A DNA stretch of 64,000 nt from the NCBI GenBank assembly GCA_016928955.1, contig JAFGJV010000004.1, forward strand, positions 323,736 to 387,735. Reading direction: 5' to 3'. The stretch is from Spirochaetales bacterium. Lineage in GTDB: Bacteria > Spirochaetota > Spirochaetia > Treponematales > UBA12059. Below are positions 1 to 4,873 of this stretch, one piece after another. The notes beneath the pieces are model-generated. The model had not been told where the DNA came from and searched no databases. It saw only the letters and a program-made list of their open reading frames with translations. The position numbers and the translations under genes are program-made. Within the stretch, counting starts at the first letter, position 1. Each line of letters starts with the position of its first letter.

Positions 1-86
1 TGTGCGGAGCCTGTTCCTACGTGTGCTGGTCCAGGATACCTCTTGTCAGGAATTTCCAGATATTCATGTCGCAAGGAAAACTATGA
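1..86 (+). CDS. rnfC: RnfC, C-terminal end only (partial)
   Basis: Frame 3 reads a short tail starting C-G-A-C-S-Y-V-C and then I-P-L-V, ending at the TGA at 84-86. This is the end of the second 4Fe-4S ferredoxin motif and the following conserved I-P-L-V of RnfC, the cytosolic NADH/ferredoxin-side subunit of the Rnf ion-pumping complex. The usual Pro after the last Cys is Trp here. The gene runs off the left edge. Its stop overlaps the rnfD ATG (ATGA at 83-86), so the two are translationally coupled. Identification rests on about 27 residues plus the rnfD-G-E-A genes that follow. Confidence 0.75.
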   Translation, partial: CGACSYVCWSRIPLVRNFQIFMSQGKL

Positions 87-1180
87 GCGCTACCGCAAGC
101 CAGGGCATATCCATCCATCCTCCCCACATCCACGACTGGCGCTCCACGTCCCGCGTTACCTGGCTGTGCGGCATCTCGCTGGTCCCCGTTGTGGCGTGGT
201 CCGCGGCCCTGTATGGCTGGCCGGCCATCACCGTGTGGCTGGCGTCCGTCGCCGCGGCCGTCCTGTCGCAGCTGGCGGTGGACGCCTTGCGCCACAGGCT
301 GAGCCTGGCGGACGGCAGCGCTGTCCTGACGGGCCTCCTGGTCGCCACGGCCATGCCGCCGGGTATCGCTCCCCACGTGCCGGCAGCGGCCTCCGCCTTT
401 GCCGTTATCATCGTAAAAGGAGTATTCGGCGGGCAGGGCTCAAACTGGATGAACCCCGCGCTCGGCGGCATAGCCTTTGCCTACGCCAACTGGCCTGGCG
501 CCATGCGCGAATTCATCATGCCGCGCATGCTGTCCGGGGTTGACGGACTCTCGGCGTCCACGCCCCTTGCTTTTGCCAAGGACCTGGCGTCGTCTGGATC
601 TGCCAGGATCATGGACACCATCCACCAGGCCGGCTATCCGGTATCCGCCCTGGACACATCCGTGACCAATGTACTCAACGGCTCCCTGTTCGAACATCTG
701 GGGGCTCGCCTGCCAGACGGATACGTGGACATACTCCTTGGGTTCAGGCCGGGAGCCCTGGGCGAAAGCGCCCTCTTCCTGGTGCTCCTGGGATCGGTTT
801 TCCTGCTATCGCTCAGGCTCATTAAAGCCGAGATACCTGTGGCCATGCTGGTCGTCTTCGCCCTCCTGTCCAAGCTGTTCGGCACCGGCCTTCCTGGTGA
901 AGCCGTGTACGGCGGAGACGCCCTGTTTGCCCTCGGAGGAGGCGGAGTCCTTATTGTGGCGTTTTATATGGCCACCGACCCTGTCACATCCCCGGCCAGC
1001 CGTTTCCTTGCCCTGTTCTACGGTGCGCTGATCGGGACCCTGAGCTACCTGTTCCGGCGCTGGGGCGGCCACCCGGAGGGCGTGGCCTATGCGGTACTGA
1101 TTGCCAACGTGGTCATGCCGACCCTGGAGCGGCGGGTTGATCCCCTGTTCCGCGGCCTGGCACGCCGGAGGCCGGCATGA
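83..1180 (+). CDS. rnfD: Rnf electron transport complex subunit D
   Basis: 365-residue polytopic membrane protein of the RnfD/NqrB family, which carries covalently bound FMN and forms part of the ion-translocating core. The ATG at 83 is chosen because it overlaps the rnfC stop and has an AAGGAAAA Shine-Dalgarno just upstream. The glycine-rich stretch with N-W-M-N-P-A-L around residue 125 and about ten hydrophobic segments fit the family. The flavinylation site reads D-G-L-S-A-S-T-P with Thr160 in the FMN position; the family normally has S-G-A-T, so Gly-Ala is replaced by Ala-Ser. The gene overlaps rnfG by four bases. Confidence 0.88.
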   Translation: MSATASQGISIHPPHIHDWRSTSRVTWLCGISLVPVVAWSAALYGWPAITVWLASVAAAVLSQLAVDALRHRLSLADGSAVLTGLLVATAMPPGIAPHVPAAASAFAVIIVKGVFGGQGSNWMNPALGGIAFAYANWPGAMREFIMPRMLSGVDGLSASTPLAFAKDLASSGSARIMDTIHQAGYPVSALDTSVTNVLNGSLFEHLGARLPDGYVDILLGFRPGALGESALFLVLLGSVFLLSLRLIKAEIPVAMLVVFALLSKLFGTGLPGEAVYGGDALFALGGGGVLIVAFYMATDPVTSPASRFLALFYGALIGTLSYLFRRWGGHPEGVAYAVLIANVVMPTLERRVDPLFRGLARRRPA

Positions 1181-1659
1181 ACACCCGCGCTACCGTATGG
1201 CCGCTGGCCATAGCCCTGGCGTGCCTTTTTATCCTGGGGCTTGGCGCCGGCTTTCTGTCAAACTACGCCGCGTCGAGCTCGGCTGAGAGCTTTCTCAGGA
1301 TGCTGGAGCCGGAGGCCGGAACGGACGCCGCATGGGAAACGCTCAGGGACGGCGCCTTGATAGGCAGGGCCGTATCGGGCAGGGGACAGGCCGTCTATCT
1401 GGCAAACGTGGGCTTTCCCGGAGGTAGCGTCCAGGCCGCCATCCAGACGAACCTGGACGGCAGGCCGCTGTCCAGCCGCGTTGTTTCCGTTCGAGGCGCT
1501 TCCAGTTACGCGCTCAGGCTGTCCGCCCTGATTCGTGAGCTTGGCTCCGGCTCTGATTCCGGGTATTCGCCCCTGGACTCGTCGCTGGAACCGACCCTGG
1601 CCGATCTTATGCGGAACCTGGCGGACGCCGAGCGTTCAAGAAAGGCGGCGCGGCAATGA
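1177..1659 (+). CDS. rnfG: Rnf complex subunit G, short and divergent
   Basis: 160 residues, shorter than typical RnfG (about 200). One N-terminal membrane anchor (residues 8-28) is followed by an extracytoplasmic FMN-binding-like domain. In this family ApbE links FMN to the Thr of an S-G-A-T motif near the C-terminus. Here the best match is D134-S-S-L-E-P-T140: Asp and Thr keep their spacing but S-G-A is gone. The call therefore leans on position between rnfD and rnfE, with ATGA overlaps on both sides. The protein may not be flavinylated, or may use a relaxed site. Confidence 0.7.
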   Translation: MNTRATVWPLAIALACLFILGLGAGFLSNYAASSSAESFLRMLEPEAGTDAAWETLRDGALIGRAVSGRGQAVYLANVGFPGGSVQAAIQTNLDGRPLSSRVVSVRGASSYALRLSALIRELGSGSDSGYSPLDSSLEPTLADLMRNLADAERSRKAARQ

Positions 1660-2225
1660 GAACTGACTCCCGGCTCACCCTGGCCCTCGCGGGACTCGCG
1701 CCCCTGTTCATGGCCTCGGACAGCTTGTACGCCGGCATGATGGCCGGCGGAGCCTTTTTGACCGCCCATGTCTTGGCTTCCGGGTTTTCCCTCCTGTCAC
1801 ACCCAGAACTCAAGCGGGGCCAGGTATTCATGATAGCCATGCTCGGCGCGGCCGCGGGCGTGGGCCTTTTCGCGTCCGTGGCCAGGGTACTGGACCCGCT
1901 TCTGTTCGAACTGCTCAGGCACCGCGTGTACGCCGCTCCCTTCCTGGCTCCCGTGGTCGCTGCCGCCCACGTGCCTTTTGGCCAGCCTGAACGGGAACGG
2001 GGCTGGGAAAACATCGTGTTGGGCCTGGCCCTGAGCGTCAGCCTTGCGGTGTTCGGCGCAGTCCGCGAATTCCTCGCCACGGCCACGGCACCGGGCTCGA
2101 ACCATGACGGTATGAGTGCTTTTATTCCGATGGCCATCCAGCCCGCCGGAGCGTTCATCCTCCTGGGCATGATAACGGCGGCCGTGCAGGCCTTGGGCCG
2201 TATCAAACGGAGGGTAGGGTCGTGA
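1656..2225 (+). CDS. rnfE: Rnf complex subunit E, divergent
   Basis: 189-residue polytopic membrane protein. The REF segment around residue 140 and the C-terminal P-A-G-A-F-I-L-L-G-M match RnfE. RnfE and RnfA each supply two Cys to a [2Fe-2S] cluster in the membrane. In this protein the first (G-L-C-P-L in E. coli RsxE) is G-L-A-P-L with Ala15, and the second (T-N-C) aligns with A-A-H, giving His105. It starts at an ATG overlapping the rnfG stop and ends overlapping rnfA. The subunit is recognisable but lacks both expected iron ligands by hand alignment. Confidence 0.78.
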   Translation: MRTDSRLTLALAGLAPLFMASDSLYAGMMAGGAFLTAHVLASGFSLLSHPELKRGQVFMIAMLGAAAGVGLFASVARVLDPLLFELLRHRVYAAPFLAPVVAAAHVPFGQPERERGWENIVLGLALSVSLAVFGAVREFLATATAPGSNHDGMSAFIPMAIQPAGAFILLGMITAAVQALGRIKRRVGS

Positions 2226-2806
2226 ACGCCATACAACTGAGTTTTTACCTGGTCTTCGGCGGCAATATTCTCATCACATGGGGCATCCTGCCCGGCGGAA
2301 AGCGCGTCCGTGGCGGCAACGCGCCTGGCTGGAAGGACGCGGTCTTTCTGCTTGTGGCCGCGGTCCTGTCCAGCCTGGTCTATGACCTTCTTGCCCGGGC
2401 CGTCCTGCATCCTCTGGGAGTCGAAGCGCTGGGCCCGGTGGTCTTTGCCTGCATCCTGTTCGGCATCCACGGGCTCAGACTGCTTGCTTTCAAGGTTCTA
2501 TCCGGCGCGCAGGAGTCCGACGAGGGCAGGGGCGCGGTTTCCTGGGCGTTCGTGCTGTACGCTACTGCGGCCACCGCCGGTTCAGCCTTTGACTCGGCAG
2601 GCCAATTGGCCATGTCCGGCGCGGCAGCGGCCTTTGGCTACCTGGCCGCGTCCCTTTTCCTTGAGGATATCGTTGAGCGATCAGAGCTCGAGCCAGTTCC
2701 GGAAGCCTTTCAGGGCATACCCGTGCGCTTGGTGAGCGCCGGCTTGGTGGCCTTGGCCTTCTCCGGGGCTGATTTCTCCTTTTTCTCGTCATTTATCGGG
2801 AAATAA
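2222..2806 (+). CDS. rnfA: Rnf complex subunit A, divergent
   Basis: 194-residue membrane protein whose last third (residues about 140-194, with A-S-L-F-L-E-D-I-V-E-R and L-V-S-A-G-L-V-A-L-A-F) aligns with the end of E. coli RsxA. The first helix should contain N-N-F-V-L and G-L-C-P; here it is G-G-N-I-L and G-I-L-P, so the first cluster Cys is Leu23. The second, Cys77 in F-A-C-I-L-F-G, is kept. Only about 54 residues separate these sites versus about 86 in E. coli, so roughly one helix seems missing. GTG start with a 4-base overlap with rnfE. No rnfB follows. Confidence 0.75.
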   Translation: MNAIQLSFYLVFGGNILITWGILPGGKRVRGGNAPGWKDAVFLLVAAVLSSLVYDLLARAVLHPLGVEALGPVVFACILFGIHGLRLLAFKVLSGAQESDEGRGAVSWAFVLYATAATAGSAFDSAGQLAMSGAAAAFGYLAASLFLEDIVERSELEPVPEAFQGIPVRLVSAGLVALAFSGADFSFFSSFIGK

Positions 2807-2956: not shown

Positions 2957-4873
2957 ATGCTAAAAACATATCTGGTACTTGGCATGTATAACCATCTTCC
3001 CGAAGGTTTCCCGGAAGCCGAGGCCGAGGCCATCTATCAAAGCTGCTACCGTCCCTTTCTCTCCGTGCTCAACCGCTTCCCCGAGATCCAGGCAACCTTG
3101 TTTTTTTCCGGCAGTCTGCTCAAGCGCCTAGAGGCCAGACATCCGGAATACCTAATGCTCCTTGAGGAGATGACGGGCCGCAGGCAGATAGAGCTGCTTG
3201 GCGGGGGTTTCCACGCGCCCATACTACCCCTGGTTCCGAATTCGGACAGGCTCGGCCAGGTCGAACAGCTGACCACGTATCTCAGGAAATTCTTCGGTAA
3301 GCGCCCGCGGGGCGCGTGGCTTTCTGAATTTGCCTGGGAACCCTGGCTGGCGTCCACGCTCCAAGCGTGCGGCATGGACTATACCTTCCTCTCCGAGCCC
3401 CAATTTGCGGCTGCCGTGGGCCAGGAGACCCGGTTTGAGCCTGTGGTCACGGAAGACCAGGGACGCTGTATCACTGTTTTTCCCGCCACCGACCTTGCGA
3501 CCCTGCCCGGCAAGCCCCTGAGCCTTGAACAGGGCGGGGAGACGCTGGCCGCACGGGGTACCGGACTGGGCGTACTCATGATGCAGGGAGAAAGCATCAG
3601 GTCGCAATGGTCCAGGTCGGGTCTCGAGTCGCCCGATATCTACCTGGAACGCGTGTTTGCCTGGTTCCGCAAAAACACGCTGGAGATAGAGACGACCACG
3701 CCATCCCGCTACCTGAAGACCAGCCGGCCCTACCGGCGGGCGTACTTTCCAGGCTCGGCCTCCCGCGCTTTTTCAGCAGCCTGCCTTCCTTCAGGCAACC
3801 ACGAACAGGCAGTCCAGCCACCCAGCCTCCGCTCTGCCGTGCTCCGGAGCGCGGCCAGTTCAGCCCTGTATTCCCGGATGCACTGGGTACAGCTACTCAT
3901 CGGGCAGCTGCGTGGCGACCGGTCGCGCAAAAAAACGGCCACGGAAGACCTCTGGAGGGGCCAGTGCGGCGACGCGTACTGGCCGGCCCCGTCTGGGGGC
4001 ATCGTGCTCCCCAGCGTCCGGCAGGCGGCCTACCGCGCGCTCATGGACGCCGAGCAGACAACGCGTAGCAAGGCCAGCTTCAAACCCGGCATACTCAGGG
4101 CCGATACGGATTTTGACGGGGCCAAGGAACTGGTATACCAGGGCACGGAGCTCAACGCCTTTGTGCACAAACGCGGCGGCGCCTTGGTCGGCATGGAAAC
4201 CGTTAAATCCAAGCGCAATGTCCTGGATCTGTACTGCCCCGAACCGGACGGTGACCGGGCCCACCGCCACGCCTTCTTGGACCGTACCTACCTGTCAGCG
4301 CCAGGCACGTCCTGGGCAAGGGAGCCGTGGAAAGCAGACGCGGGCACGTTTTCCCGTCATGCCTTTGAGGAACTGCAGAGCCTTGCCAATTCGAGCAGCC
4401 TGACCCTGTACAGGGAGGATGTGGTTGGCACCAGCCAGGCGCGGAGGATGCTCGGGCTCAAGAAAACGTACAGTTTCCACAAAAAAACAGCCAGGGCGTC
4501 ATACGAGCTGTCCAACAAATCGGACGCGCGTTTTTCGTTCTGGCTGGGCGTGGAATTCAACGTAGCCGTGCTGCCGGACGAGCTTTCCGCCCTGACCCTG
4601 GACGGCACCAAGGTGGACGCCGCCCTCGCGCACGCGCAAAAGGGCGCAGCCCTGGGCGAAGCCCAGGGCTTTGCCTACCGCTGCGAGGACGAGGCCCGCT
4701 CCGTCGCCGTCCACGCCTCAAAAAAGGCCAACGCCCTTGCAGCGGGCGTCAGCGCCGAGCTGGCCGACGGTGTCCAGGTTGCCCAGGGGTCATGCCTGCT
4801 CCTGTGGTGGAAGATCGACCTTGAGCCGGATGGATTGTGGTCCATGGACATCAACGTGAGCTGCGGCGAATGA
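2957..4873 (+). CDS. GH57 glycosidase-like protein with an altered active site
   Basis: 638 residues with the layout of GH57 4-alpha-glucanotransferase/amylopullulanase-like enzymes (N-terminal barrel, then DUF1925/DUF1926-type beta domains). Conserved region II is visible as E-L-L-G-G-G around residue 80. Region III, W-L-S-E, has Glu124 where the catalytic nucleophile sits (Glu123 in Thermococcus litoralis). Region I, normally H-x-H-Q-P, is Y-N-H-L-P. The acid/base Asp of region IV (D-G-E) appears replaced by Gln210 in M-Q-G-E-S. It may be a non-hydrolytic relative or a carbohydrate-sensing protein. An AAGGA at 2942-2946 sits upstream of the ATG. It stands alone between rnf and murC. Confidence 0.75.
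   Translation: MLKTYLVLGMYNHLPEGFPEAEAEAIYQSCYRPFLSVLNRFPEIQATLFFSGSLLKRLEARHPEYLMLLEEMTGRRQIELLGGGFHAPILPLVPNSDRLGQVEQLTTYLRKFFGKRPRGAWLSEFAWEPWLASTLQACGMDYTFLSEPQFAAAVGQETRFEPVVTEDQGRCITVFPATDLATLPGKPLSLEQGGETLAARGTGLGVLMMQGESIRSQWSRSGLESPDIYLERVFAWFRKNTLEIETTTPSRYLKTSRPYRRAYFPGSASRAFSAACLPSGNHEQAVQPPSLRSAVLRSAASSALYSRMHWVQLLIGQLRGDRSRKKTATEDLWRGQCGDAYWPAPSGGIVLPSVRQAAYRALMDAEQTTRSKASFKPGILRADTDFDGAKELVYQGTELNAFVHKRGGALVGMETVKSKRNVLDLYCPEPDGDRAHRHAFLDRTYLSAPGTSWAREPWKADAGTFSRHAFEELQSLANSSSLTLYREDVVGTSQARRMLGLKKTYSFHKKTARASYELSNKSDARFSFWLGVEFNVAVLPDELSALTLDGTKVDAALAHAQKGAALGEAQGFAYRCEDEARSVAVHASKKANALAAGVSAELADGVQVAQGSCLLLWWKIDLEPDGLWSMDINVSCGE

Follow-up and report, generated by a model that had tools for sequence, protein, structure and literature searches.

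A paralogous rnf locus, the third of the Rnf/Nqr kind in the genome of a Spirochaetales bacterium, encodes RnfE and RnfA subunits that have lost all four ligands of the intramembrane [2Fe-2S] cluster. The operon is the direct descendant of the Rnf complex, since some families of the same lineage still have a canonical operon behind the same partner gene, UP470. We propose, as a tentative reading that comes close to an even chance, that the locus is a vertically inherited Spirochaetia Rnf paralogue which has lost its outbound path and NADH end and is kept for another job, which it would perform through a half-path made of RnfC and RnfD.

The window carries a third Rnf/Nqr locus

The window, the whole stretch of 64,000 nucleotides that was analysed, opens with the end of rnfC and continues with the rest of the operon. 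Positions preceded by L005 refer to the longer extract that includes the DNA upstream of the window.

L005:9146-10558, UP470, an uncharacterised membrane protein of polytopic type whose gene immediately precedes rnfC; the more specific marker of the lineage
1..86, + strand, 3′ end of rnfC; most of the complete gene (L005:10389-11822) precedes the window
83..1180, + strand, rnfD; PF03116, 265 bits; FMN-attachment Thr motif present (DGLSASTPLA)
1177..1659, + strand, rnfG; 160 aa; a single N-terminal helix and a short domain, without the [ST]GA[ST] flavinylation motif
1656..2225, + strand, rnfE; 189 aa; 0 Cys; Rnf/Nqr fold retained in the model
2222..2806, + strand, rnfA; 194 aa; 1 Cys (Cys77)
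2957..4873, + strand, GH57 4-alpha-glucanotransferase-like gene; next gene downstream and a conserved neighbour

The frames of rnfD, rnfG, rnfE and rnfA are intact and, from rnfC onwards, each gene overlaps the next by 4 bases, which bears out the description of the genes as intact and tightly coupled in an earlier note on this DNA. Against the Rnf-Nqr family RnfE scored 17.4 bits and RnfA 15.8 bits, both below the curated cut-off of 23.8. A family search of the 365-aa RnfD returned PF03116 as the sole family above cut-off and no fusion to an NqrF NAD-binding domain; no NqrF-like ORF was seen adjoining the window rnf locus. Further upstream (L005:1438-4913), a by-eye reading of the translations indicated genes like those of a biotin-dependent Na+-translocating decarboxylase (carboxyltransferase, biotin carrier and membrane beta subunit).

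The genome (2.87 Mb, 99% complete) contains two other loci of this kind. The second complete rnf locus that the earlier note had suggested looking for is present on contig C9 as a canonical rnfCDGEAB, which has all four ligand Cys and carries the rnf-linked RnfB of the genome. Contig C25 carries nqrBCDEF, again with all four ligand Cys. No nqrA adjoins this nqr operon (L007, G000:C25:16000-30000); the only NQRA_N match in the genome is weak, below cut-off and located on C9 at the canonical RnfC, and six related genomes gave no NQRA_N match above cut-off. Nqr in these spirochaetes may possibly be built without NqrA.

All four ligand sites of the membrane cluster are lost

In Rnf, electrons pass from ferredoxin to RnfB, the membrane [2Fe-2S] cluster, the FMN of RnfG, the FMN and riboflavin of RnfD and the two [4Fe-4S] clusters and FMN of RnfC, and from there to NAD (PMC12174285). 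With no Cys in the window RnfE and a single one in the window RnfA, a Cys4 [2Fe-2S] cluster is impossible in this pair, irrespective of any alignment. In an alignment to the genome's own canonical copies the ligand sites are occupied by Ala15 and Ala98 in RnfE and by Gly25 and Phe110 in RnfA. Profile-profile alignment to canonical RnfE (95.7%, E=8.7e-9) gave the same first site, Ala15, and Leu97 as the second, and neither this alignment nor that of RnfA to canonical RnfA (98.9%, E=3e-17) placed a Cys at any ligand site.

The earlier note was therefore right that most ligands are missing and right about Ala15 of RnfE, but its count of three lost out of four was too low, and the other residues that it named, His105 of RnfE and Leu23 of RnfA, are a few positions off. 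Cys77 of RnfA, which it took for the remaining ligand, is part of helix 3, some 33 residues ahead of the second site, and is not conserved in relatives; we rejected it as a retained ligand. Nor does RnfA lack about one helix, as had been suggested: the profile alignment has no helix-sized gap, and the protein has 194 aa compared with 191 aa for the canonical RnfA of the same genome.

The predicted structures are consistent with a retained Rnf/Nqr fold. The model of RnfE (pLDDT 85.8) has inner helices broken near the old cluster sites, matches 9eri_E with a TM of 0.67, and has exclusively Rnf/Nqr subunits (RnfE, NqrD, RnfA and NqrE) as its top PDB matches. For RnfA the model has six helices and is of low confidence, notably at the N-terminus; its best structural match is RnfA (9eri_A).

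Several positions near the old sites have become newly fixed in the Cys-less group to which the window belongs (Tyr9, Trp20 and Tyr113 in RnfA; Pro16 and Pro99 in RnfE). No Cys, His or Met is conserved in RnfA or RnfE of this group, and alternative conserved metal ligands were accordingly rejected. The suggestion that electrons cross the membrane differently by way of RnfA and RnfE is thus unsupported; a different crossing through RnfC and RnfD is possible. That RnfA and RnfE hold another cofactor, with other metal ligands or heme, and still carry electrons outwards would fit the kept fold, the new conserved Trp and Tyr near the old site, and the 8 and 10 Cys found at other positions in RnfE and RnfA of a Treponema pallidum-like genome. 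We nevertheless consider it highly improbable, given that the Cys-less group conserves none of the residues Cys, His and Met, that there is a family (f12) in which RnfE and RnfA have no Cys anywhere, and that the flanking RnfB and RnfG FMN motif are absent.

Further cofactor sites are lost and the RnfC clusters are kept

The window RnfC retains both [4Fe-4S] motifs (8/8 Cys) and has lost the FMN/NADH loop, with the motifs GMGGAGFP and NAAECEPY both gone. The same split is seen throughout the non-canonical copies of the lineage, where the eight cluster Cys are 100% kept versus 0-15% for the FMN-loop positions; all eight are present in every complete RnfC copy of the lineage. RnfD of the window's group keeps 77% of the canonical invariant positions as well as the FMN Thr. 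The RnfD FMN motif is unrecognisable in the Treponema-like family f3, in f5, f6 and f8, and in most other deep lineages. The window RnfG lacks the covalent-FMN motif; its homology to RnfG is weak (hhalign probability about 60%) and its assignment is mainly positional. There is no RnfB at the window locus. ApbE is encoded in the genome. These losses in RnfC and RnfG and that of RnfB, together with the presence of canonical Rnf and Nqr elsewhere in the genome, support the alternative that the earlier note had offered, namely that the module was repurposed. The note had seen neither the losses outside RnfE and RnfA nor the fact that a whole lineage has this state in common.

An old Spirochaetia lineage with a gradient of loss

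Matches to the window RnfA were found in 37 of 39 relatives, the weakest being canonical copies. Of 296 Spirochaetota genomes, 86 gave a match to a profile of UP470; apart from two marginal matches, these belong to the class Spirochaetia. UP470 has no Pfam or NCBIfam match, and its PDB matches are all insignificant. It is fast-evolving and tied to the rnf locus across Spirochaetia, adjoining a complete canonical Rnf already in families f10, f11 and f15. At two loci (L121 and L145) UP470 occurs with no recognisable rnfC, rnfD, rnfE or rnfA alongside, and it may outlive the Rnf genes. We read the locus in over 70 genomes, in most of which the order UP470-C-D-G-E-A is conserved, and RluD, DUF212 and GH57 genes are neighbours in the loci looked at; the GH57 gene is part of the synteny block and also occurs in the T. 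pallidum-like genome. We conclude that the locus is ancient within the class and has been passed on vertically. Families form single or nearly single clades in a tree of RnfC and RnfD, which fits such descent.

The families differ in how much of Rnf they retain. Families f10, f11 and f15 have, linked to UP470, an operon for a complete canonical Rnf, with four Cys, the RnfC FMN/NADH loop, the RnfG motif and RnfB (at one of these loci, L123, both RnfE Cys are present and RnfA was not picked up), and in f10 and f11 this operon is the sole Rnf of the genome. Family f2 (L049) has a nearly complete Rnf. Family f4 and genus g10 keep 4/4 Cys and RnfB and have lost the RnfC loop and the RnfG motif, genus g9 has 3/4 Cys, and genus g7 has 0/4 Cys with RnfB present. 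The window's group (g1, g2, g4, g5, g6 and also g3) has 0/4 Cys and no RnfB. The Treponema-like f3, together with f5, f6 and f12, has 0/4 Cys or one leftover; no RnfE was recognised in f8, and some lineages are without RnfE or RnfA. On the RnfC and RnfD tree the Cys state changed at least three times, with at least three losses, a root-dependent lower bound given that the deepest branching (f6, f8, f12, f14 and f17) is uncertain and its branches long.

RnfB accompanies all 14 of the 14 lineage loci with three or four ligand Cys. Among the remaining 52 loci it is absent in 38, and the other 14 comprise 13 with a shortened RnfB and one (L047) with a full RnfB despite 0/4 Cys, so that the co-loss is imperfect. 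The association between Cys loss and RnfB loss is a descriptive pattern, a tree-aware test being non-significant with too few independent pairs. The Treponema-type shortened RnfB, encoded downstream of rnfA (L080, L081, L138-L144 and L152-L155), keeps the ferredoxin-like part and lacks the N-terminal [4Fe-4S] motif.

Selection on the Cys-less subunits

We estimated dN/dS in a close Cys-less pair (L032/L034) and obtained 0.12 for RnfE, 0.14 for RnfA, 0.09 for RnfC and 0.12 for RnfD, compared with 0.01, 0.02, 0.06 and 0.06 in a canonical UP470-linked pair (L124/L126). Cys-less RnfE and RnfA are thus under purifying selection, about tenfold weaker than in the cluster-carrying canonical copies. 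That selection acts on them in species lacking the Cys speaks against both sequencing error and a pseudogene, and we rejected the two, with gene order and frames kept across genomes and dN/dS well below 1. The same ligand loss is common to at least a dozen related loci of the window's family. The identity of the window proteins to canonical copies is low, about 15-25%, which would speak for an error of alignment, assembly or annotation, with normal ligands in fact present. The chance of this is vanishingly small: the Cys counts are independent of alignment and exclude it for the window, the same state recurs in many independent genomes, and synteny is conserved.

The weaker constraint on RnfE and RnfA, the repeated loss of redox sites and the loss of RnfE or RnfA in some lineages would also be expected of a functionless relic on its way to being lost. 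We regard such decay as distinctly improbable, because dozens of species, among them one with a strongly reduced genome of 1.14 Mb, have preserved the open frames and the operon order, dN/dS is far from 1 on the low side, and the cluster Cys of RnfC are invariant.

The operon of a Treponema pallidum-like genome

The reduced genome (G032) is a single contig of 1,139,633 bases with one RnfD at 174 kb and ApbE at 864 kb, and in it we detected no RnfA/E by Pfam, no RnfB FeS domain and no canonical Rnf. It is almost certainly T. pallidum. Its locus (L077) is syntenic with the window, with rnfC, rnfD, a G-like gene, rnfE, rnfA and the GH57 gene, and without UP470. RnfC has 8/8 cluster Cys, and G, R, D and G occupy the four ligand sites; with their off-site Cys, its RnfE and RnfA might conceivably hold an unusual cluster. 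The stripped operon is apparently the sole Rnf of the syphilis bacterium. In the literature searched we found no report of missing ligands in the T. pallidum Rnf; the paper that is said to have first proposed this Rnf, a 2015 mBio study of T. pallidum flavinylation, was outside that search.

TP0151 of T. pallidum has been named rnfD (PMC11371664), and L077 is very probably orthologous to the 'noncanonical RNF' of the TP0151 region. One group has proposed that operon as a flavodoxin:NAD chemiosmotic pump and termed it noncanonical (PMC7512555, PMC11717252). The published operon (PMC7512555, PMC11717252, PMC11371664) shares with the window locus its gene order and its RluD, DUF212 and GH57 neighbours and differs in lacking UP470. 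In contrast to its description as a putative pump, the sequence is without RnfB, the four aligned ligand Cys, the motif of RnfG and the FMN/NADH loop of RnfC.

These genomes also bear on whether RnfC and RnfD of the stripped operon could serve as alternative subunits on a canonical Rnf, using its RnfB, RnfA, RnfE and RnfG, with their own RnfE, RnfA and RnfG as assembly partners or leftovers. Many of the same genomes do encode a canonical Rnf, but the T. pallidum-like G032 and G026 have the stripped operon and no canonical Rnf, and a hybrid whose RnfC has lost its NADH site would be unable to reduce NAD; we consider this arrangement quite improbable.

A possible half-path through RnfC and RnfD

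Loss of the [2Fe-2S] ligands, of RnfB, of the FMN motif in RnfG and of the FMN/NADH loop in RnfC would leave the known circuit from ferredoxin through RnfB to NAD unable to run, and hence would leave no Na+ pumping in the known way. For the window copy, the simplest function that would use the remaining parts is a half-path from RnfC to RnfD. In the window lineage a cytosolic low-potential carrier (ferredoxin or flavodoxin) would reduce the [4Fe-4S] clusters of RnfC, these would pass electrons to putative riboflavin and FMN in RnfD, and the electrons would leave RnfD, one way, for a periplasmic or membrane acceptor, with RnfA, RnfE, RnfG and UP470 as scaffold or conduit. A half-path of this kind cannot hold for the lineage as a whole, because of the families, f3, f5, f6, f8 and most other deep lineages, whose RnfD FMN motif is unrecognisable.

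That same feature of f3 and several other families makes a function free of transmembrane electrons a serious rival, rather unlikely as we judge it. In this case the complex would no longer carry electrons across the membrane; RnfD, RnfA and RnfE would act together with UP470 as a transporter, a channel or a scaffold, and the clusters of RnfC would be a redox sensor or structural. The RnfC clusters are the only universal ones in the wider lineage, ammonium/urea transporters are structural relatives of RnfD/NqrB (PMC12174285), and the fixed Tyr, Trp and Pro positions of RnfA and RnfE suggest a rebuilt core. However, the window's group keeps the RnfD FMN motif and most canonical invariant positions, the eight strictly kept Cys point to electron transfer, and nothing hints at a substrate for transport or a partner in signalling. 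We retain the RnfC-RnfD half-path as the preferred reading for the window copy.

Comparison with known systems

With the Rnf complex the window locus shares the order C-D-G-E-A, the folds of RnfD, RnfE and RnfA, the RnfC_N/SLBB domains and both RnfC [4Fe-4S] motifs; it differs in the losses described above and in having UP470 as an additional conserved partner. Judged by the features tested, its sequence places it outside the Rnf pump family in function, though it is descended from it. With Na+-NQR it shares an origin from a duplicated rnf operon minus rnfB and a C/A subunit that loses its FMN/NAD site (model in PMC4014512). NQR, however, keeps the membrane [2Fe-2S] cluster and both covalent FMNs, loses the RnfC Fe-S Cys and gains NqrF, whereas the window locus shows the reverse, with RnfC Fe-S kept, the membrane cluster lost and no NqrF. 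The NQR/RNF-like half systems (PMC8238504) have a one-way RnfD/NqrB half-path, which for the window locus is only the proposed mechanism. They consist of a fusion of RnfD/NqrB with the NqrF NAD domain and a flavinylated partner, mainly in Actinobacteria and CPR, in contrast to the separate RnfC, RnfD, RnfG, RnfE and RnfA of the window locus, which have no NAD domain.

Implications

The Rnf pump on which the published account of ATP gain in T. pallidum relies is very probably encoded by this operon, whose sequence lends no support to the known circuit of pumping. It is possible, at rather less than an even chance, that in Spirochaetia, including the syphilis agent, the Rnf pump has turned more than once into a new membrane machine that retains the protein frame of the pump, does not pump by the Rnf circuit and has the two RnfC [4Fe-4S] clusters as its only universal cofactors. 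The route of duplication and RnfB loss proposed for the origin of NQR (PMC4014512) has here a second case with a different ending. The intramembrane [2Fe-2S] cluster is regarded as an essential, strictly conserved core of Rnf and NQR, yet a large natural lineage dispenses with it and keeps the subunits. This lineage offers a way to separate the protein frame from the electron path, and its intermediates, from complete through 4/4 and 3/4 to 0/4 Cys, suggest an order in which the pump was dismantled.
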